Origin: Sulfuricurvum sp.
GTDB lineage: Bacteria; Campylobacterota; Campylobacteria; Campylobacterales; Sulfurimonadaceae
Length of the DNA stretch: 64,000 nucleotides
Reading direction: 5' to 3'
NCBI GenBank assembly: GCA_030693335.1
Contig: JAUYAU010000011.1
Span: 124,001-188,000, forward strand
Positions 6,802 through 23,137 of the stretch are shown in pieces; within the stretch, counting starts at the first letter, position 1, and the number at the start of each line of letters is the position of its first letter. The position numbers were made by a program, and so were the translations under genes. The notes under the pieces are model-generated. The model was not told the origin of the DNA and did no database searches. It worked only from the letters and a program-made list of their open reading frames with translations.

Positions 6802-8514
6802 TTAGTATGTTCTAGCTTTGACTTCATGCTTGCCAAGGGTGACATCCATGTAATCAAGGGAAATAGTGCCGTCTTCATCCATGTATGCCATGGTATGCTT
6901 TAAGAAGTTCTCATCATCACGTGTAGGGAAATCTTCACGGAAGTGGGCTCCACGGCTCTCATTGCGAGCAAGTGCACTGGCTACGATAAACAGTGAGTAA
7001 TCAAGCATATGGCCAAATTCGATTGCTTCTTGCAACTCTGTGTTAAAGATTTTTGATTTATCACTAACACGGATATTTTTGTAACGTTTTCGCAAGTCTT
7101 CGATAATTTTCATTTGTGTGGTTAGTGTCTCTTTGGTACGGAACACACCTGCATTGTCTGTCATAGACTGCTGAAGCTCATCACGAAGTGTTGGAACATG
7201 CTCTTGACCGTGATTGGTTAATGCCCATTCGACTTCATTGATCATACGCTGCGCATCGGCTTGTGTTGCCACACGTAATGTGATACCATCAACATCGTTG
7301 ACCATTGTTTTACCAACGAAACGGCCAAACAATAATGCTTCTAAGACGGAGTTTGCACCCAATCGGTTGGCACCATGAACACTTGAACAAGAACATTCAC
7401 CCGCCGCATAAAAACCTTCAACGTATTCGGTATTGTTTTTACGAACATGGCCGTCTTTGTTCATAGGTATTCCACCCATTGAGTAATGGGCTGTTGCTGA
7501 GATTAAAATAGGCTCTTTGATCATGTCAAGACCCAAAAAGGTAATCGCAAGATCACGAAGCTCTGGAAGGCGCTCCATGATTTTTTCTTTTCCTAAGTGC
7601 ACTAGATCGATGTAAACGGCATCTTTACGTGGACCTACACCGCGCCCTTCGCGAATCTCTTGGATAATAGCACGTGCAACAACGTCACGAGAAGCGAGTT
7701 CAAGAGCATTGGGTGCGTATTTTTCCATAAAACGCTCGCCCAATGAATTGAGAAGACGTCCACCTTCACCGCGAGCGGCTTCAGAGATCAAAACACCGTT
7801 TCCGGAAAGTCCTGATGGATGAAATTGCACAAACTCCATATCTTCAAGCGGAAGACCGTGACGTGCTACGAGAGAGAGTCCATCGCCGGTGTTAGCATGT
7901 GCATTTGAGTTAATCTTGAATGCTCTGGCATATCCGCCAGTTGCAAACATAACGGTTTTAGCATTGAATATAGCGTATTCACTGTTACGTATGTTATAAG
8001 CGGCAACACCATATACTTTACCCTCTGCATAGAGAAGATCTGCTACATACCATTCATCCCAAAACTCTACACCGACGCGAAATGCCTGCTCATACATGGT
8101 TTGAAGCAAGGTAAGTCCCGTGCGGTCTTTTGCAAAACATGCACGTGGTGAAGATTGTCCGCCAAAAGGACGCTGTGCAATCGTACCGTCTTCATTACGA
8201 CTAAATACTGCACCCATTTTTTCAACCCAACGAACGGTTTCAGGTGCTTTTTCGCACATAAATTCGACAACATCCTGATCTGCAAGATAGTCAGATCCCT
8301 TGACCGTATCATACTCATGTAATTCAACGCTGTCTTTGTCACTAAACGCAGCATTAATTCCGCCTTGAGCCGCACCAGAGTGAGAACGAAGAGGATGGAG
8401 TTTGGTAATAACAGCTACTTTTTTACCCGCAGATTGTAATTCACGAGCTGCAGCACATCCTGCTAAGCCTGCTCCAACGATAATTGCATCGTAAGTATAA
8501 ATGGGAATACTCAT
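6802..8514 (-). CDS. sdhA: Succinate dehydrogenase/fumarate reductase flavoprotein subunit
   Basis: The 570-residue catalytic subunit that interconverts succinate and fumarate. It has the N-terminal dinucleotide-binding motif (AIIVGAGLAGCAAARELQ), the flavin-attachment region with RSHSGAAQGGINAA, the substrate-site segments FVQFHPSGL and SEAARGEGG, and HGANRLGANSVLEAL near the C-terminus. There is no twin-arginine signal. The MfrA subunits of Wolinella and Campylobacter carry one and act in the periplasm, so this complex is probably cytoplasmic. Its likely roles are in the reductive or oxidative TCA cycle. GGAAGG precedes the ATG by 3 bases. Confidence 0.94.
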   Translation of the reverse strand: MSIPIYTYDAIIVGAGLAGCAAARELQSAGKKVAVITKLHPLRSHSGAAQGGINAAFSDKDSVELHEYDTVKGSDYLADQDVVEFMCEKAPETVRWVEKMGAVFSRNEDGTIAQRPFGGQSSPRACFAKDRTGLTLLQTMYEQAFRVGVEFWDEWYVADLLYAEGKVYGVAAYNIRNSEYAIFNAKTVMFATGGYARAFKINSNAHANTGDGLSLVARHGLPLEDMEFVQFHPSGLSGNGVLISEAARGEGGRLLNSLGERFMEKYAPNALELASRDVVARAIIQEIREGRGVGPRKDAVYIDLVHLGKEKIMERLPELRDLAITFLGLDMIKEPILISATAHYSMGGIPMNKDGHVRKNNTEYVEGFYAAGECSCSSVHGANRLGANSVLEALLFGRFVGKTMVNDVDGITLRVATQADAQRMINEVEWALTNHGQEHVPTLRDELQQSMTDNAGVFRTKETLTTQMKIIEDLRKRYKNIRVSDKSKIFNTELQEAIEFGHMLDYSLFIVASALARNESRGAHFREDFPTRDDENFLKHTMAYMDEDGTISLDYMDVTLGKHEVKARTY

Positions 8515-13968: not shown

Positions 13969-15069
13969 TTAAACGTTAAATCTAAAGTGCATAACATCAC
14001 CATCAGCGACAATGTACTCTTTTCCCTCAAGACGCATTTTACCGGCTTCTTTGGCTTTGTTTTCTCCGCCGCAAGCGATGTAATCCTCATAACCGATCAC
14101 TTCGGCACGGATAAACCCTTTTTCAAAATCGTTGTGGATAACAGCAGCGGCTTTTGGTGCGGTGCAATTTTTACGGATCGTCCATGCTCGTACCTCTTTG
14201 ACACCCGCGGTGAAGTAGCTCATGAGACCAAGCTTATCAAATCCTTTACGGACGATTTGCTCGAGTCCTGATTCTTCTACACCCATATCGCGTAAAAATT
14301 CATTACGCTCATCTTCTTCGAGGCCGACAAGTTCTTCTTCGATTTTTGCACATAGCTTGATTACTTCACACCCATTCTTTGCGGCATGTTCACGGAGTCT
14401 GACAACGAATTCGTTGTCTTCGCTCATACCGTCTTCATCGACGTTTGCCCCGTACATGATCTCTTTTGCACTTAAAAGACGCACTTCACCATTGAGCTTT
14501 TCAAACATTTCGCTATCCGCTTTTGGAAAGTTGCGTGCAAGGTTTCCTTCGGCAAGATATTCAGCCAATTCTTCGGCAAAAATAACCATGACTGCAGCAT
14601 CTTTTTCATTTTTTGCTTGCTTTTTGAGACGTTCAATACGGTTGGTCAGTACTTCGATATCGGCAAAAATGAGTTCATTTTCGATGATCTCAACGTCCAA
14701 TAACGGATCGATACGTCCTTCGGTATGAACAATATTTTCATCTTCAAAACAACGAACAATTTGCAAGATAACTTCGGTTTCACGGATATTGGAAAGAAAT
14801 TTATTTCCCAATCCTTCCCCCTTGCTTGCGCCCTTGACAAGACCTGCAATATCGACGAAATCAAGTGTTGAGTATTGTACACGTTCTGGTTTGACGATTT
14901 TTACGAGTTCGTCAATACGTGCATCGGGTACGGGTACGGTTGCTTTGTTAGGTTCGATGGTACAAAACGGATAGTTGGCAGCTTCTGCATTTTGTGCTTT
15001 GGTAAGCGCGTTAAAAGTAGTTGATTTTCCGACGTTTGGTAGTCCTACGAGTCCGATTGATAATCCCAT
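13969..15069 (-). CDS. ychF: Redox-regulated ATPase YchF (OLA1 family)
   Basis: A 366-residue Obg-related P-loop protein that prefers ATP to GTP in its family and associates with ribosomes. It has GLVGLPNVGKSTTFNAL (P-loop), YPFCTIEPNKA, VDIAGLVKGASKGEGLGNKFL (switch II with DxxG), and the C-terminal TGS-like domain with RAWTIRKNCTAP and a final GDVMHFRFNV. In C. jejuni I recall ychF next to pepA; here the two are separated by the accessory block at 15.2-21.7 kb. Confidence 0.95.
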   Translation of the reverse strand: MGLSIGLVGLPNVGKSTTFNALTKAQNAEAANYPFCTIEPNKATVPVPDARIDELVKIVKPERVQYSTLDFVDIAGLVKGASKGEGLGNKFLSNIRETEVILQIVRCFEDENIVHTEGRIDPLLDVEIIENELIFADIEVLTNRIERLKKQAKNEKDAAVMVIFAEELAEYLAEGNLARNFPKADSEMFEKLNGEVRLLSAKEIMYGANVDEDGMSEDNEFVVRLREHAAKNGCEVIKLCAKIEEELVGLEEDERNEFLRDMGVEESGLEQIVRKGFDKLGLMSYFTAGVKEVRAWTIRKNCTAPKAAAVIHNDFEKGFIRAEVIGYEDYIACGGENKAKEAGKMRLEGKEYIVADGDVMHFRFNV

Positions 15070-15170: not shown

Positions 15171-15200
15171 CCGTTCGCCCTGAGCTTGTCGAAGGGTTAA
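15171..15200. repeat. REP-like palindromic element
   Basis: The 30 bases contain TTCGCCCTGAGCTTGTCGAA and then GGG. TTCG (15174-15177) can pair with CGAA (15190-15193), and CCCT with AGGG (15193-15196). This core closely resembles the widespread TTCGACAAGCTCAGG-type REP elements mobilised by RAYT transposases in many bacteria. It lies just outside the last gene of the accessory block, 8 bases after its stop. Only one copy is seen in this window. It may also end transcription from the GIY-YIG gene. Confidence 0.5.
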
Positions 15201-15208
15201 AAATAATC

Positions 15209-16417
15209 TTATTGTTTGAATTTTATTTTTTTATCCATTACATCATATTGATAATTCACAATATTTTCATTTAAAATTAGATGTATTACTTTCTCAATTA
15301 CATCAAAAGGAACTACAAACCATTCTCTCGGTGTTATCCTCTGTCCTTTAGTATCGAACAAATCTACATTTAAACAAGCTTTAGCAAAAAACCTATGCAA
15401 AAGACTTTCTAATTTATCAGCATTTCGATTATAAACTTTATAAGTCGCTACTTTTTTAACATCTGTAAATAAATATGTTGCTTCATTTTTTGCATTCTTT
15501 ATTCGTTCATCTACAGATGTACTTGAAAAACCTATTTTATATAAGTCTTTAATATCTGAAATATCGGGGTTTTCAGATTTGGATTTTAAAACATATATCC
15601 AACCTGTTTGAGTATCTTCTTCATTTACAAACTCTGTATCTACAAATAAGTTTTCAGTATATAGAGGATTAAGTTCTGTAATCAACTTACCATTGTTATA
15701 TAAAGATTTTCCTAACGATCTATATAACATATTACTAAGTGTTGCATTTTCAAAAATTATTCGTGTACGACCATCTTTCCGTCTAAGTGTATTTTTTCCT
15801 AAATCTTCTTTTTCTCTTTTTAAATTAACACTTTCAAGGTACAACAATAAACCATCAAGTAAATAAAACCTTTCTTCTTTTAGGTGTGTTTCAACATCTT
15901 TAAATACTTGAATTTGTCTTTTACCCTCTCTTATTTCTTGATGTACAGTTTGAAACATCTTCTCATATTTTTCAAATTCTTTTTCTTTCAATGGTTTTCG
16001 CTGTGCTACAAAATCCGTTTCAGCTTTATCTTGTGGTTTCGGAGTGTGGTTAAATTTGAAAATATTTAACTCACTATCTGTTTCCAACAAACCTAAATCA
16101 TCATCATTAAAAATATCATTTATTGTAGGTTTGTCCATTTCTACATAGCCCAATAGGTTGTGTCTGTCAAATGGTTTTAAAATCTTTTTACTAGTTTCAT
16201 CTTCTTTAAAATGGCGTAGTGATGCAAGTAAGTTATATTCTGACATACTAGAGGCACTTGGCTCCCTAGCATTTTTATCAATAAAAGAATTTATTTCCTC
16301 AAAAGAATCAATAAGTCTATCATCTTCATTTTTTACATTTGATATTTTTGGCTTTGAGTCCAATAACCCAAAATCATCATCGCTAAAGATATCGTCTAAT
16401 GTTTTTTTATTATTCAT
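15209..16417 (-). CDS. GIY-YIG (T5orf172-type) nuclease of the methylase-helicase module
   Basis: A 402-residue protein with a C-terminal GIY-YIG fold: WIY (273-275), DLYKIGFSS (291-299), the Arg in VDERIKNA (305) and the presumed metal-binding Glu in KLESLLHRF (337). The middle (about 211-245, with FENATLSNMLYRSLGKSLY) is a conserved accessory region I know from related GIY-YIG proteins. The N-terminus carries a duplicated acidic peptide, TLDDIFSDDDFGLL at 6-19 and TINDIFNDDDLGLL at 98-111. Its ATG overlaps the end of the helicase gene by 8 bases without a good ribosome site, so translation is probably coupled. Inference: it supplies the DNA cut for the module. Confidence 0.82.
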   Translation of the reverse strand: MNNKKTLDDIFSDDDFGLLDSKPKISNVKNEDDRLIDSFEEINSFIDKNAREPSASSMSEYNLLASLRHFKEDETSKKILKPFDRHNLLGYVEMDKPTINDIFNDDDLGLLETDSELNIFKFNHTPKPQDKAETDFVAQRKPLKEKEFEKYEKMFQTVHQEIREGKRQIQVFKDVETHLKEERFYLLDGLLLYLESVNLKREKEDLGKNTLRRKDGRTRIIFENATLSNMLYRSLGKSLYNNGKLITELNPLYTENLFVDTEFVNEEDTQTGWIYVLKSKSENPDISDIKDLYKIGFSSTSVDERIKNAKNEATYLFTDVKKVATYKVYNRNADKLESLLHRFFAKACLNVDLFDTKGQRITPREWFVVPFDVIEKVIHLILNENIVNYQYDVMDKKIKFKQ

Positions 16418-18371
16418 TATTTAATGCTCTTTTTCGTTTCTGTTCTCTTAAAAAAACCAATGCCTCAGACATTCTTTTTTCCTTTTTGTCAAAAGACTGT
16501 AAGCTAGGTTCTGAACCTGTTTTACTGACCCATTCTTTTATCTTAGGCCATAAAATAATGGCTTCTTCCTCTGTCATTTCAATTTTTGTTGATTGGATAT
16601 GTTCATCTATCAACTTTAATACTTGAGTCGTTACTGATTTTGATAAAATTTCAAAAGCTTTCTGAAATGGATTTACTTGATCTATTAAGTCAATATGAAT
16701 ATCATCAATATTAACAAAGCTTCCTGCCATTCTAATAAATTTTTTATCACCTTGTTCTTCTATCGTACTATTTTTTATCACAGAGTCAACAACGACATGT
16801 TGTCTTACTGCTTCCAAATCTTCGTCATTTAAATCGGGATACACTTCTCGTATTATTTTTGGTATTAGTACCGTATTTATAACTTCAGGATCAAGATTAC
16901 CAGGCATCGCTTTTATCATTTGCTCATCTTGTAAAATTCTTGCTTTCAAGTCATTTAAATCTGATTCTATAATATCCTTTGCTCTTTGTGATGTTGGTAA
17001 TTTAAAGCCTCTTATTTTAATTGTATTATCATCATCTTTTTCATCATCGTCACTCTCTAAATCTTTTGGCTTAAAATTAAAATTAGGTGCTAAAACTTGT
17101 TCCATCAACAAAGATGCTGTAATAGCTTTTAACATATTGTTTACGGATAATTTCACATCATCATCTTCTGCATCAACTTGAGCTATCAAGTTCGTAAATT
17201 GGGCGTGAGTTTTATTATTACTGTCTCTTGTTGCCCTTCCTATAATTTGAATAATTTCAGTTAAGGAACCTCTGTAGCCAATTGTTAAAGCATGTTCACA
17301 ATAAGGCCAGTCAAATCCCTCTTTTGCCATTCCAAGCGCAATAATAATATCAATATCATCTACTGATTTTACATTTCTCAAATAACTTGAGATTTTATCT
17401 CTTGATTTTGGATTATCATTTACTAAATCAGCAACTTTTAATATTTTGCCAGATTTATTGCTTTTGATATACAGTACACCTGTCTTCTCATCTTGATATT
17501 CCAATTCACCCAAAACTTCAATGATATGATTTACTTCTTCATATTTTTCTTTTGATGATTCGGCTGAATTAACACTTGGGATATGAATAATTGTCTTTTT
17601 ATTTTCGTCTAAAACTTCTGCTAATGCAGACATCTCTTTATCGGGCTGTTTTTTAAAATATCTACCTGAATAAAAATGATAACCAATACCTAAAGATTTT
17701 AGATATTCGTAACCATTTAACTGTTGATAGTAATTATAAGTTACTTTGGTGAACTTAGCTTCATCTTCTGGCATTAATACAGGAACACTATCTCCCCTGA
17801 AATATGAACCCGTCATAGCCACAATATGCGCATCTGATTTAGTCATGATATTTCTTAATACTTCACCCAATTTATTATCCCCATCAGCAGATACATGATG
17901 AAATTCATCTATAGCGATTAATGTATTATCAAACTTTTTTTCATCCAATCCATCAAAAGCAAAACGCAAAGTGGCATGTGTACAGATAAGTATCGACTCA
18001 TCGCTTTCTATAAACTCTAAAAAAGCAGACACTTTACTTTTTTCTTCTCCCGGTGTGCAGAGATTGTACTTTGGATTTGGACTCCAATCGCTAAAAAAGC
18101 CATCTTGTTTCAGCTCTGTTGTTTCAAAAGATGCACCGATTGATTTTTCAGGAACGGCAACAATTACTTTTTCAATTCCTTGGTTTTGAAGCTTATCTAG
18201 GGCTATAAACATTAATGCTCTAGATTTTCCAGATGCAGGAGGTGCTTTTAAAAGTAAATATTGTGCTGTTTTACCCTCATAAGCTTTTTCTTGCATCTCA
18301 CGCATACCCAAAGCATTTATCTTTTTGCTTTGTCCAGTTTGCTGATATTTTACATGTACTAAATCAGGCAT
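16410..18371 (-). CDS. SF2 DEAD/DEAH-type helicase of the module
   Basis: A 653-residue helicase/translocase. Visible motifs are Walker A APPASGKS (43-50), Walker B DEFHH (155-159), motif III MTGSY (186-190), motif V GMAKEGFDWP (347-356) and motif VI QIIGRATRDS (375-384). The DEFHH form recalls the motor subunits of restriction enzymes more than RNA helicases. The C-terminal 250 residues are charged and have no motif I know; they may contact the partner proteins. It begins 5 bases after the methyltransferase stop, with AAGGG 9 bases upstream, and overlaps the nuclease gene. Loading on DNA and remodelling or translocation is the likely task. Confidence 0.85.
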   Translation of the reverse strand: MPDLVHVKYQQTGQSKKINALGMREMQEKAYEGKTAQYLLLKAPPASGKSRALMFIALDKLQNQGIEKVIVAVPEKSIGASFETTELKQDGFFSDWSPNPKYNLCTPGEEKSKVSAFLEFIESDESILICTHATLRFAFDGLDEKKFDNTLIAIDEFHHVSADGDNKLGEVLRNIMTKSDAHIVAMTGSYFRGDSVPVLMPEDEAKFTKVTYNYYQQLNGYEYLKSLGIGYHFYSGRYFKKQPDKEMSALAEVLDENKKTIIHIPSVNSAESSKEKYEEVNHIIEVLGELEYQDEKTGVLYIKSNKSGKILKVADLVNDNPKSRDKISSYLRNVKSVDDIDIIIALGMAKEGFDWPYCEHALTIGYRGSLTEIIQIIGRATRDSNNKTHAQFTNLIAQVDAEDDDVKLSVNNMLKAITASLLMEQVLAPNFNFKPKDLESDDDEKDDDNTIKIRGFKLPTSQRAKDIIESDLNDLKARILQDEQMIKAMPGNLDPEVINTVLIPKIIREVYPDLNDEDLEAVRQHVVVDSVIKNSTIEEQGDKKFIRMAGSFVNIDDIHIDLIDQVNPFQKAFEILSKSVTTQVLKLIDEHIQSTKIEMTEEEAIILWPKIKEWVSKTGSEPSLQSFDKKEKRMSEALVFLREQKRKRALNNE

Positions 18372-18376
18372 CTTTT

Positions 18377-21091
18377 TTATCCCTTATTACTTTTTTGTTT
18401 TCTAATTTTTTTCTCTTTAGCAAATAAAGTATCTTTTTTTATCATTTCTTCATATAGTTTAAATAGATACTCTAGTCGTTCTGCATCATTCTTAAAAGGC
18501 TGTAAACGGTAGCACTTTTCTATCGCTTCGTCCAATTCTTGATGAGCTTGTTTTAATCCCTTTGGCATTGTATCGGGATTATACAACCAAGCCATGGTCT
18601 TTCCTCGATGTTTAGCTCGCTCATCTAAAATAGCAAAAACATATAAGTTTACATTCTCTTTTTGTTTGGTAGTAATCTCAGGAAATGGGAAAGTGTTGTA
18701 ACAAAGAGTATTTGAATACTGCATATCCATTTTTAATCTGCCTGCAACAGCTTTAACCCATGCTATATGCATTCTTGAGGAGATGACACCAAAAAGCCAA
18801 GGTTCAGCATTGTAAATAACTCTTGTGGCATTTGATGGTACATAACTTTCATCAAAATAACCAATAGGAACGTATTCTCTTCTTTCAGAACCAGTCTGCG
18901 GCACTAAAATAAATTCACCTGTTTGATGTTTGTCTTCATCAAAGAAGTGAGGTGTCTCAGCTTTTTTTTGTGTAGCTTTCTTTTGACTGTTTAATCTAAA
19001 TATCTCAACTTTATCAAATCGTTCAACTAATTCATTTATTTCATAAGCTTCTTTTACTGTTTTTTTACTAATGTGAAGACAATATCTAAATGTTCCATTC
19101 ATAAACTCTTGAGCGCCTATATATTTTTTTATAAATTTCACTGCTTTTTTATTTTGTGATACTAAATTATCTTTTTCTTCTTGTGTTAAAAGTAAGTGCC
19201 CATTATCACCTGGCGAACTTCCTTTAATCATTAAAGGTAATTGCCCTAAAGGTTTATTTCTTGGTAAAACTAATACATCCATTGTATTCGTTAAATAAGG
19301 GCTAATATTTTTAACACTTTGTCTTATATTCTTATAATAAATATATTTATTACTATTTTCAATATTTCTAATTCCAATAATAACAACCGCAACCCCTGCA
19401 TTACCTTTTGCATTATTTGTCCATTTAAAAGATTGATGTGCAAATGCAATTTCTTGTTTCTTATTTAAAATTAATGGCCATAAAAGAGCTACTTGCTCAC
19501 CTTGTGTGATTGAATTCGTAGTGACAAAAGCATATTTAGCATTTATATTTTCGATATATTGCGTTGCCTTATAAAACCAACAAGCGATATAATCTAATTT
19601 TTTATAGTTATTTATTTGTGTAAAAACTATAGACATATCTTGTTTTTGCTCATCATCTTGCCTACTATAACCTAAATATGGAGGGTTCCCAATTATATAA
19701 ACTTCATCCATTTTTGTAGTTGGACAAACTTCTTTCCAGTTTTCTCTGGTAGCATTGCCTCGAATAATGGTTCCTGATTTTTTTAACGGAATAATGGATT
19801 TATGCTCGGTAAATCCTACTAGTTGATCTTCAAAATATTGATTCATTTGATGTTCAGCCAACCAAAGAGAAAGAATTGCAACTTCATGTGCAAAATCATC
19901 TATTTCAATACCATAAAATTGCTCTAATGAAATGACACTATCAATCAATAAATGTGATTGTTCTAACTCAATAATGCGTTGTAAGATTTTTATCTCTAAA
20001 AGTCGTATCTCTTTGTAGGTAATAATCAAAAAGTTTCCACTGCCACAAGCAGGGTCAAAAAATTTAATTTTAGAGATTCTGATTATAAGCTCTCGCAATT
20101 GTTTCGCACTATCTTGTGCTTTTTCAAACTCTTCATATAGCTCATCTAAGAAAAGTGGTTTAATAAGTTTTAAGATATTTGGAACAGAAGTGTAGTGCAT
20201 TCCTAAATCACTACGATATTCATCTAAAACAACGGCTTGTATCATTGAGCCAAAAATATCAGGATTAATATCTTTCCAGTTAAGTTCGCCCAATTCAATC
20301 AATATTTTTCGTGCTTTAGATGAAAAAATAGGAATATTAATAGTGTCTTTAAACAAATCGCCATTTACATAAGGAAACTCTGCCAGATATGCAGGAAATC
20401 CATCTTTTTTAAGTGTGTTTAATCTTTCAAATAAACGACTTAAAAACTCATGCGTATCACTGCCGTCATTGTTAGTATGCTGTACCAAGGTATTTGTAAA
20501 TATACTATCATCTTCAAATATTTCAGTATCTTCTGCAAAATAACAAAACAACAAACGGGACAAGAAAATATTGAGATGATGAATATGCTCTTTTGAGTTA
20601 TAAATATTTGGATTTTCTTCACGTAATAAATCATAAAGCATTGCCATTTTATAAGCAGCATTTCTATCTGCTTCATTATCATTACTAGCTTTATAAACTT
20701 CGCTTCCAGCTAAAGGTAAAAAGAAGTCAAAATACTTTGGTAACTCTTCAATCTCAATATCTAAGTTTCTACCTAACTTCAAATCTTTTGCAACAAGATG
20801 TTTATAATCAGTGGCTATTACAAACCGAGGCTTATGTTTTAAAATAGATTCTTCTTTTGAAAGACCATCAACTGTACTTAAAAGTTTATCAGCATCCTCT
20901 ACTTTAAAAAATATCTTCTTTTTATAAAGAATCTCATTTTCATTTTTTGATAAATTAAAGTCACCTTTTTTTAATCTAGTAATTGAAGTTTTTGAAATTC
21001 CGTATGCAATGAGAAAATCATAAATAAATTCTTCTTTAGAAAAATTATTGATAATAGTTTGTAAATTATGTTCTATTTCTTTTGTATTCAT
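18377..21091 (-). CDS. MmeI-like N6-adenine DNA methyltransferase
   Basis: A 904-residue protein resembling the methylase half of Type IIL (MmeI-like) enzymes. It has motif X near GMHYTSVPNI (297-306), SAM motif I DPACGSGNF (346-354), YGIEID (393-398) and catalytic motif IV NPPY (469-472). A likely target-recognition region covers about 600-800 and a helical tail follows. The N-terminal 120 residues align with the MmeI nuclease domain. At the position of D-x9-E-x-K it has E53, K63 and E65, so the cut site is probably dead. It heads the three-gene operon. Its own ribosome site is weak. The recognition sequence cannot be read from the sequence. Confidence 0.85.
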   Translation of the reverse strand: MNTKEIEHNLQTIINNFSKEEFIYDFLIAYGISKTSITRLKKGDFNLSKNENEILYKKKIFFKVEDADKLLSTVDGLSKEESILKHKPRFVIATDYKHLVAKDLKLGRNLDIEIEELPKYFDFFLPLAGSEVYKASNDNEADRNAAYKMAMLYDLLREENPNIYNSKEHIHHLNIFLSRLLFCYFAEDTEIFEDDSIFTNTLVQHTNNDGSDTHEFLSRLFERLNTLKKDGFPAYLAEFPYVNGDLFKDTINIPIFSSKARKILIELGELNWKDINPDIFGSMIQAVVLDEYRSDLGMHYTSVPNILKLIKPLFLDELYEEFEKAQDSAKQLRELIIRISKIKFFDPACGSGNFLIITYKEIRLLEIKILQRIIELEQSHLLIDSVISLEQFYGIEIDDFAHEVAILSLWLAEHQMNQYFEDQLVGFTEHKSIIPLKKSGTIIRGNATRENWKEVCPTTKMDEVYIIGNPPYLGYSRQDDEQKQDMSIVFTQINNYKKLDYIACWFYKATQYIENINAKYAFVTTNSITQGEQVALLWPLILNKKQEIAFAHQSFKWTNNAKGNAGVAVVIIGIRNIENSNKYIYYKNIRQSVKNISPYLTNTMDVLVLPRNKPLGQLPLMIKGSSPGDNGHLLLTQEEKDNLVSQNKKAVKFIKKYIGAQEFMNGTFRYCLHISKKTVKEAYEINELVERFDKVEIFRLNSQKKATQKKAETPHFFDEDKHQTGEFILVPQTGSERREYVPIGYFDESYVPSNATRVIYNAEPWLFGVISSRMHIAWVKAVAGRLKMDMQYSNTLCYNTFPFPEITTKQKENVNLYVFAILDERAKHRGKTMAWLYNPDTMPKGLKQAHQELDEAIEKCYRLQPFKNDAERLEYLFKLYEEMIKKDTLFAKEKKIRKQKSNKG

Positions 21092-21158: not shown

Positions 21159-21485
21159 TTAAAATACTTCATCACAAAATAACTTTTGGATTTTATTTAA
21201 ACCGATACGATTGATTTGAGCGAGTTTTTTTTCTGCGTTTTGTGTGGAAATGGTAAAACATTTATCATACTTGACAAAAGAACGCAGTTTTAATTCTCCT
21301 TCTGCAAGATCATCTGGGTGTATTTCATATAGATTTGATTGTTTAGAGTTTGAAGTGATTTGAAAACAGACGATGTCTCCGTACTCGTTTTCATCTTTGA
21401 TAATAAGTACGGGTCTTTTTTTAGCGGAAAGTAGGTCTGTGAAAGGGAAAGAGATGAGAATAATGTCTCCGACTTTATAATTCAT
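21159..21485 (-). CDS. MazF/PemK-like toxin
   Basis: A 108-residue protein of the PemK/MazF family, which act as mRNA-cleaving toxins. The N-terminal strand MNYKVGDIILISFPFTD with the following KKRPVLII is the family hallmark. The frame is open further upstream, but the ATG at 21485 gives the standard N-terminus and overlaps the antitoxin gene by 11 bases, as is normal for such pairs. Toxicity and target are inferred from the family. It lies 67 bases upstream of the methyltransferase gene and on the same strand, so read-through is possible. Confidence 0.75.
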   Translation of the reverse strand: MNYKVGDIILISFPFTDLLSAKKRPVLIIKDENEYGDIVCFQITSNSKQSNLYEIHPDDLAEGELKLRSFVKYDKCFTISTQNAEKKLAQINRIGLNKIQKLFCDEVF

Positions 21486-21672
21486 CCCAAGCCTTATCTT
21501 CATCATTATCCCATGTTGCAGACATGGAAGTTTGTTGAAGCTTTTGCATTGCTTTACTGACATCTTCTAAAGGGATAATGATAACTTCACTTTTTACAGT
21601 CATCTCTTGGAGCATGCTGATGACATGTTGTCGGTCAGCAGGAGTACTAACGATTTCTCTATAGGCTACCAT
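21475..21672 (-). CDS. Putative antitoxin of the MazF-like toxin
   Basis: A 65-residue protein preceding the toxin, ending in an acidic NDEDKAWDEL tail like those of antitoxins paired with PemK-type toxins. The N-terminal half could form a DNA-binding fold, but I do not see a clear ribbon-helix-helix or AbrB signature. A GGAG site precedes the ATG. It probably represses the pair's promoter at 21694-21699. Confidence 0.65.
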   Translation of the reverse strand: MVAYREIVSTPADRQHVISMLQEMTVKSEVIIIPLEDVSKAMQKLQQTSMSATWDNDEDKAWDEL

Positions 21673-21703: not shown

Positions 21704-23137
21704 TTATTTACAGTTTTCAATCAACCAATTAAGTGTCATACGTACTCCTGCTCCCGTGCCACCATAGGTATGAACATCCCATGCGCTTTCGGTATACGCA
21801 GAGCCTGCGATGTCAAAATGGACCCATTTTTGTTTCATATCTTCATCAATGAAGTTATCGAGGAACAGGGCAGCAGTTATCGCTCCGCCATACGGTTTTG
21901 AAGAGACGTTGCACACATCGGCAAGATCACTTTTGATCAGTTTTTTGAGATGGCGGTTAAATGGTAAAATACCGCAGTATTCGCCGCTTTTCTCTGCCGC
22001 ATTCAGCCATTCTTGCTTGAGTTCTTCATTATGCCCCATGACGCCTGTCGTGTAGGGCCCAAGAGCTACCATGCAAGCACCTGTGAGGGTAGCGTAATCA
22101 AAAATATAATCTGCTTTGATTTTTTCTTGAGCATATCCAAGCACATCGGCTAGGACGAGTCGTCCCTCGGCATCAGTATTGCGTACTTCAATGGTTTTAC
22201 CGTTTTTAGCTACGAGGACATCATCGGGTTTATAGGCATTGCCTCCGATCATGTTTTCAACGGCTCCCACAAATGCATGAACTTCGATGTCCAGTTTGAG
22301 CTCACTGACCGCTTTGATGACACCCATGACGGCACATCCGCCTGCTTTATCCATTTTCATCGTGACCATGGAGGCTGCGGCTTTTAGGCTCAGACCGCCG
22401 CTGTCGTAGGTGAGACCTTTGCCCACAAGGGTGATCACTTTTTTTGGATTTTTAGGCTTGTAGGACAAATGAATGAGTCTGGGAGGATTAATGGAAGCGC
22501 GTCCGACACTCAGCATCGCATTCATCTTTTCACTTTCGAGACCGTTAACATCGAGAATGGTGCAGTCGAGATTGTTGGTTTTAGAAAGAGAATCCGCGGT
22601 AATGGCCATCCCTTGCGGTGTCATGTCATAGGGAGTTTGATTCACCAAGTTACGTACAAAATTCGTTGCATTTGAAATAATAATACTTTCCTCAAGAATA
22701 GAGGTTAAGGTGTCTGCATTTAAAGCGATTTTATCAATGTTTTGGGTGGAAAAAATAACTTCTTTGAGAGAAATTGCTTTTGGCTGCGATTTATAGCTGT
22801 TGAACTGGTAGCTGCCTAAAATAGCTCCCTCAATCAACGATTTAAAAAGGTTCTCGCCGTATTGAGAGAGTTTTATTGATGCATAGCCGTAGTTCATTGC
22901 GGTTTTAATGGCTGTAGCCATGGCACTTCGAAGGTTTTCATGGCTTACGTCACTGATACCGCAAATTAAAAGACGGTGTTCATGAAGAGGGCATAGCTGC
23001 TCTGCTTCAGCTTTGAACCCCGCTTGGGTTAATAGACTCTTATGGGAGTGGGTTTCAAGCTGTGATGCTGTTAAAAATTCTAAGGTGAGATCAGCATGGA
23101 TAAGCTCAAGAGGTTGATTAGCTAGTTTGACGTTCAC
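21704..23137 (-). CDS. pepA: Leucyl aminopeptidase (M17)
   Basis: A 477-residue cytosolic aminopeptidase that needs two metal ions and removes N-terminal residues from peptides; in some bacteria PepA also binds DNA. The M17 signature NTDAEGRLVLADVLGYA is complete, and the metal-site segment GKGLTYDSGGLSLK and MKMDKAGGCAVMGV are present. The start is GTG with GGAG 7 bases upstream, within the dedA 3' end (20-base overlap). Downstream lies the toxin-antitoxin pair and then the accessory block. Confidence 0.93.
   Translation of the reverse strand: MNVKLANQPLELIHADLTLEFLTASQLETHSHKSLLTQAGFKAEAEQLCPLHEHRLLICGISDVSHENLRSAMATAIKTAMNYGYASIKLSQYGENLFKSLIEGAILGSYQFNSYKSQPKAISLKEVIFSTQNIDKIALNADTLTSILEESIIISNATNFVRNLVNQTPYDMTPQGMAITADSLSKTNNLDCTILDVNGLESEKMNAMLSVGRASINPPRLIHLSYKPKNPKKVITLVGKGLTYDSGGLSLKAAASMVTMKMDKAGGCAVMGVIKAVSELKLDIEVHAFVGAVENMIGGNAYKPDDVLVAKNGKTIEVRNTDAEGRLVLADVLGYAQEKIKADYIFDYATLTGACMVALGPYTTGVMGHNEELKQEWLNAAEKSGEYCGILPFNRHLKKLIKSDLADVCNVSSKPYGGAITAALFLDNFIDEDMKQKWVHFDIAGSAYTESAWDVHTYGGTGAGVRMTLNWLIENCK

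Follow-up and report, generated by a model that had tools for sequence, protein, structure and literature searches.

Three genes on the minus strand of a 64,000-nucleotide stretch of a Sulfuricurvum sp. genome (GenBank assembly GCA_030693335.1, contig JAUYAU010000011.1, positions 124,001 to 188,000; hereafter the window) probably form a working, motor-driven restriction-modification (R-M) system of the DnmA-YeeB-YeeC kind, in which the labor is divided among a methylase, a motor, and a nuclease. The cassette (15209-21091) consists of three intact open reading frames (ORFs) encoding an adenine DNA methyltransferase (MTase) of 904 amino acids, an SF2 motor of 653, and a GIY-YIG nuclease of 402, spaced by +5 bases between MTase and motor and -8 bases between motor and nuclease. 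The most likely reading is a Type I-like R-M system whose core is a Type IIL methylase with a dead nuclease; this reading draws on the gene set, the loss of the nuclease motif from the MTase, the coupling of that loss to the partner genes, the conserved catalytic residues, the purifying selection, and the free variation of the target recognition domain (TRD). The gene calls, lengths, strand, spacings, AT-richness, and position between pepA and ychF given in a first-pass annotation of this DNA all agreed with the ORFs, the GC content, and the Pfam matches.

That annotation also held that the cassette matches no known gene set, but the set has already been described: it is the DnmA (YeeA)-YeeB-YeeC cluster of Bacillus subtilis, found in many phyla. 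DnmA by itself suffices to methylate one strand of GACGAG and lacks the MmeI nuclease motif, and in many genomes a helicase gene and then a T5orf172/GIY-YIG gene accompany it; the Type I-like R-M nature of the cluster is discussed in passages of the same papers that cite Morgan et al. 2009 (PMC7261158, PMC9973331). The window cassette resembles this cluster in its three families and their order, in the missing nuclease motif of the MTase, in the helicase gene and then the T5orf172/GIY-YIG gene directly downstream, and in its low GC content, apparent acquisition, and neighboring toxin-antitoxin genes. It differs from the B. subtilis copy, which by the published description is inactive, in having three intact genes, which fall in a branch rich in Bacteroidota. 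Although the cluster is widespread, its activity is disputed, being negative in B. subtilis and reportedly positive in Vibrio, as far as the latter work is quoted. The findings of the present study argue for a maintained restriction system, not a relic, with an internal logic that can be checked. Testing in the laboratory should be simple, as the cassette also occurs on the Escherichia coli AW1.7 chromosome and on plasmids of enterobacteria (L004). To our knowledge, four results are new: the quantified rule linking motif and partners, the decoupling of the recognition domain, the gap that takes up accessory genes, and the repeated docking-like peptides.

The lost nuclease motif and the partner genes

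The MTase contains all five Pfam domains of the Type IIL enzyme MmeI (MmeI_Mtase, E 3e-106; MmeI_TRD, 6e-76; MmeI_N, 2e-27; MmeI_C, 2e-24; MmeI_hel, 6e-24), and its profile (A3) matches the MmeI structure 5hr4 with an E value of 6e-255. Like MmeI, it is expected to methylate adenine on a lone strand. In contrast to MmeI, its catalytic nuclease residues are lost (D70, E80, and K82 of MmeI are aligned with E53, K63, and E65), cutting would reside in another protein, and a motor is added. By this alignment, the MTase is devoid of the MmeI nuclease motif, and a single-chain Type IIL enzyme, with active nuclease and methylase together, was rejected on that account.

The relation between motif loss and partner genes was surveyed in a sample blind to the helicase, in which the MmeI_N domain was the only criterion for drawing MTases from about 1,100 genomes in five phyla and the neighborhoods of these MTases were then fetched; the cassette is present in about 20 of these genomes. 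E-x-K is retained in 30 of the 50 alignable MTases, whereas the other 20 have lost the motif. A motor or nuclease gene lies downstream of none of the 23 motif-intact MTases whose downstream sequence exceeds 8 kb, and a search for either gene on both strands of the 30 motif-intact stretches found none, while the motor-nuclease pair lies downstream of every motif-lost MTase with enough flanking sequence (19/19); the 20th, whose partners were not seen, sits near a contig end. Loci drawn instead by the motor gave 90 MTases with a readable N-domain, all of them motif-lost and accompanied by the partners (89 downstream, 1 upstream). The first-pass annotation had proposed the split of labor and would have given it up if the three genes rarely co-occurred; they do occur together in other genomes, and the tracking of partner presence by motif loss supports the split. 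Some E/D/Q-x-K string is found in the segment in 13 of 111 motif-lost rows, in none of them at the aligned catalytic columns.

The tree separates all 107 motif-lost MTases from 27 others by a branch with 100% support, and by this topology motif loss is a single evolutionary event. The Fisher p value for the motif-partner contingency, 2e-12, therefore overstates the independent evidence because the contingency reflects essentially one tree branch. At least 560 relatives of the motor were confirmed. In a Bacillus relative (L099), the gene order is the same, with the SF2 helicase and then the T5orf172/GIY-YIG gene directly downstream, while a Sulfurimonas locus (L054) has the order motor-nuclease-methylase, with the partners upstream of the methylase. 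The closest methylase relative found, at 83% over 593 columns, comes from a different family within the order; after it in the tree come Bacteroidota sequences. At the nearest relative, L141, the MTase is apparently frameshifted near the C-terminus (8090-8240), the remainder lying in another frame, a pattern that could reflect phase variation, gene decay, or an error in sequencing.

Taken at face value, PADLOC and some RefSeq annotations would make the MTase a self-sufficient Type IIL/IIG enzyme followed by two unrelated passenger genes, and the PADLOC REase_MTase_IIG model does match the MTase end to end with 1001 bits. Given that K-V-E replaces E80-x-K82 and E replaces D70, and that the partners accompany motif-lost MTases wherever the sequence suffices, such an arrangement is extremely improbable. 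PADLOC and RefSeq label motif-lost members, among them the window MTase and that of L002, as complete Type IIG/IIL enzymes; judged by the alignment, this automatic annotation is wrong for the motif-lost branch.

Selection, co-divergence, and gene layout

All three genes are under purifying selection, as shown by dN/dS ratios against the nearest relative of 0.28 for the MTase, 0.07 for the motor, and 0.30 for the nuclease, and conservation is highest for the motor, with a median pairwise identity of 61%. Over 99 loci, the pairwise distances of the MTase body, the motor, and the nuclease correlate with one another at r 0.87-0.90, whereas those of the TRD correlate with the other three at only 0.45-0.50. 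A weakly correlated TRD beside an otherwise coupled set is the pattern expected if the target changes while the machine is kept, and thus the TRD looks to evolve largely independently, with diversification of specificity.

These data bear on the proposal, made for B. subtilis, that the MTase is an orphan now regulating gene expression and that the motor and nuclease are non-functional relics. It is backed there by the lack of restriction of transformation or phages and by altered gene expression in a dnmA mutant (PMC7261158, PMC9973331). For the window such a state is unlikely, considering the conservation of the motor (61% median identity, dN/dS 0.07), the catalytic residues that are all intact here and invariant in homologs, and the co-divergence of the three genes across many phyla; B. 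subtilis YeeB and YeeC, moreover, are without stretches that the Vibrio proteins have (PMC9973331).

The maintained R-M system favored here has a layout of its own. Of 132 intervals between motor and nuclease, 1 is 500 bp or longer, against 47 of 109 between methylase and motor. Genes recurring in the latter gap encode RhuM, Schlafen AlbA_2, Fic and Doc, PDDEXK_3 and _4, YhcG/DUF1016, and AAA_13 proteins, and loci with such accessory defense genes at this place include L027, L029, L033, L083, L132, L143, and L259. The whole gap-gene set may well recur in hsd operons too. This layout suggests, by analogy, that the motor and nuclease together correspond to HsdR, and the MTase to HsdM and HsdS combined. 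The system shares with Type I and Type ISP enzymes a gamma-type adenine MTase, an SF2 motor, a nuclease, and accessory genes between the modification and restriction genes, for which an anticodon nuclease gene inside a Type I operon (the PrrC precedent) has been published (PMC3874165). Unlike in those enzymes, specificity is fused to the MTase without an HsdS, and the nuclease is a separate GIY-YIG chain rather than a motor-fused PD-(D/E)XK domain; Pfam searches of the cassette proteins gave no match to HsdR_N or Methylase_S, the Type I domains. In CglI and NgoAVII, the nuclease subunit is of the PLD type and reads the site itself. The window nuclease differs in being a GIY-YIG protein whose Pfam matches are T5orf172 and MUG113 only, with no PLD domain among them, and the site reader in the window system is most likely the MTase. 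The systems have in common three genes, for an MTase, a separate nuclease, and a separate DEAD-family motor, and, as predicted for the window, an asymmetric site and NTP-dependent cutting (PMC4267653, PMC5737866).

The motor, the nuclease, and a possible mode of action

The motor matches the Pfam families ResIII (2e-8), DEAD (3e-8), and Helicase_C (3e-5), and its Walker A, DEFH, and motifs III and VI are invariant across 71 of 71 homologs. Its structure model (mean pLDDT 74) resembles RIG-I/MDA5, FANCM, and RadD-like proteins with Z scores of about 20-22, and EcoR124I HsdR is among the top Foldseek matches. A PDB sequence search found no relative at E 0.001. The folds would suit a protein that moves along duplex DNA, while a fold alone proves no function. 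No full copy of the motor was found in the annotated phages searched; IMG/VR contigs include copies, and these contigs are perhaps prophage or island DNA.

The nuclease matches MUG113 (2e-14) and T5orf172 (1e-11), and G272, Y275, K294, G296, R305, E337, and H341 are invariant in 76 of 76 homologs. Its model (mean pLDDT 85, pTM 0.45) runs from a short helix through a helical domain (31-83), a second short helix, and a middle domain to the GIY-YIG domain, whose best GIY-YIG fold match is Slx1 (Z 6.3). Matches of the middle domain are weak, SH3/Tudor/EF-P-like with Z at most about 6, and were left without interpretation, and a PDB sequence search with the nuclease gave no match worth reading. The two short helices sit in copies of one motif, the strict pattern of which occurs at least once in 65 and twice in 35 of 73 homologs, compared with 31 of 3,650 shuffles. 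In one comparison, the helical domain was related to the C-terminal mini-domain of the motor (hhalign 95%, E 3e-8). The nuclease gene is split into two ORFs in a Proteus plasmid, in Acinetobacter, and at one viral-contig locus, and each half carries the DDDLGLL motif. From these patterns we infer that the duplicated acidic-hydrophobic peptides serve docking.

In the mechanism that we propose, the MTase, of MmeI fold and with its own nuclease dead, would combine modification and specificity in one chain, reading an asymmetric site and methylating adenine on one strand. On unmethylated DNA it would recruit the SF2 motor, which would then translocate along the duplex in an ATP-dependent manner, carrying the GIY-YIG nuclease by way of the docking peptides D-I-F-x-D-D-x-L/F-G-L-L and the common helical mini-domain, and unmarked foreign DNA would be cut. 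Because single-strand marking leaves one daughter site unmethylated after each replication, cutting might require that two complexes converge from head-to-head sites, in the manner of Type III and ISP enzymes, a rule that we give somewhat less than an even chance. The corresponding argument for the MmeI family is that one-strand marking cannot itself protect newly replicated DNA, while head-to-head pairs would (PMC3874165); carried over to the window system, it would favor collision-dependent cutting over other rules. Taken as a whole, a distinct ATP-dependent restriction architecture, with a nuclease-dead Type IIL methylase core, a GIY-YIG nuclease riding a duplex translocase by duplicated docking peptides, and cutting on collision, is a tentative proposal. 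We know of no other motor-driven restriction system with a GIY-YIG cutter; if true, this would be the first, with a modular docking tag already naturally split in two.

Another possibility is that the nuclease cuts neither at nor between sites but acts on DNA structures that the motor meets, as an Slx1-like junction nuclease whose action would break replicating phage DNA or bring it to a halt. In the fold comparison, no GIY-YIG entry other than Slx1 ranks near the top, and the motor resembles the fork/duplex translocases FANCM and RadD as much as HsdR. Fold likeness proves no function, however, and the Z score of the nuclease is low (6.3), while the free variation of the TRD speaks for targeting of specific sites; we regard such a nuclease as improbable. 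Exclusion of the BREX kind, with methylation marking self and the motor and GIY-YIG protein blocking phage replication without site-directed cleavage, could explain why phages do not avoid the DnmA site as they do classical restriction sites (PMC9973331), and the MTase does match the BREX_1 PglX model, but weakly, with 38.5 bits against a cut-off of 500. The GIY-YIG active site is conserved, and no PglZ or BrxC is recognizable beside the cassette in a reading of the ORF list, all of which makes this quite improbable. BREX itself was rejected on the PglX score and on neighbors read as pepA, ychF, and housekeeping genes, and DISARM because the MTase is only weakly DrmMI-like, scoring 114 bits where the IIG model gives 1001, and because no Drm match was obtained for the motor or the nuclease.

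Several points weigh against the site-directed restriction system that we prefer. In B. subtilis, deletions left plasmid transformation and infection by three phages unaffected, and GACGAG is not avoided in phages (PMC7261158, PMC9973331). The higher phage sensitivity of Vibrio crassostreae dnmA and yeeB deletions is known second hand, from a statement in PMC9973331 citing Piel et al. The motif-partner contingency comes down to essentially one tree branch rather than many independent events. The activity of the window proteins is predicted from sequence, adenine methylation is expected from the intact motifs and from what the B. subtilis enzyme does, and both the head-to-head rule and the docking role of the peptides rest on analogy and a sequence pattern.

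The insert and its surroundings

GC content is 28-34% across 15.0-21.0 kb and 40-45% in both flanks. In eight relatives (L303-L310), pepA and ychF are directly adjacent without the cassette, and therefore the 6.6 kb between them here, which hold a MazF-type toxin-antitoxin pair and the three-gene cassette, are an acquired insert; by this comparison of gene order, the cassette is a horizontal acquisition. Coordinates are collected in Table 1.

Table 1. Features of the cassette and its neighborhood (window positions unless a locus is given)
Feature	Positions	Strand	Basis or remark
ychF	13969-15069		cassette neighbor
GIY-YIG (T5orf172/MUG113) nuclease subunit, YeeC-type, 402 aa	15209-16417	-	ORF; Pfam
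GIY-YIG catalytic domain, residues 265-402	15212-15625	-	alignment; fold comparison
Nuclease middle domain, residues 136-260	15638-16012	-	model; weak SH3/Tudor/EF-P-like resemblance
Docking-like motif copy 2, DIFNDDDLGLL, residues 101-111	16085-16117	-	alignment; model
Nuclease helical domain, residues 31-83, related to motor C-terminus	16169-16327	-	model; hhalign
Docking-like motif copy 1, DIFSDDDFGLL, residues 9-19, short helix in flexible region	16361-16393	-	alignment; model
SF2 motor, YeeB-type, 653 aa	16410-18371	-	ORF; Pfam; fold comparison
Motor C-terminal helical mini-domain, residues about 600-650	16422-16574	-	hhalign
Motor core, residues 18-472	16956-18320	-	alignment columns; fold comparison
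MmeI/DnmA-type N6-adenine DNA MTase with built-in TRD, 904 aa	18377-21091	-	ORF; Pfam; MmeI match
Target recognition domain MmeI_TRD, residues 604-805	18677-19282	-	Pfam
MTase motif IV NPPY, residues 469-472, adenine MTase catalytic motif	19676-19687	-	sequence
MTase motif I DPACGSGNF, residues 346-354	20030-20056	-	sequence; conserved in homologs
Degenerate N-terminal nuclease domain MmeI_N, residues 2-157	20621-21088	-	Pfam; MmeI D70/E80/K82 not conserved
K63-V64-E65, aligned to MmeI E80-M81-K82, nuclease motif lost	20897-20905	-	alignment to MmeI
PemK/MazF-type toxin, same insert	21159-21563	-	Pfam PF02452, E 9e-11; absent from relatives
65-aa ORF overlapping toxin gene, putative antitoxin	21475-21672	-	ORF list
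pepA	21704-23137		cassette neighbor
Split nuclease genes at other loci	L002:9936-11141; L089:11930-13140; L116:9930-10300		one docking-like motif per ORF

The toxin gene and the small ORF overlapping it, which the first-pass annotation had missed, are, like the cassette, missing from the relatives. The 65-residue ORF is probably the antitoxin, by position alone, as a Pfam search with it gave no match above the cut-off. Toxin-antitoxin genes also neighbor dnmA in B. subtilis (PMC9973331). Scans for promoters and terminators gave results no better than chance. Immediately past the cassette, at 15171-15196, lies CCCTTCGACAAGCTCAGGGCGAACGG, whose 17-base core has three exact copies in the genome and one with a single mismatch, and which may be a small repeat or the footprint of an insertion.

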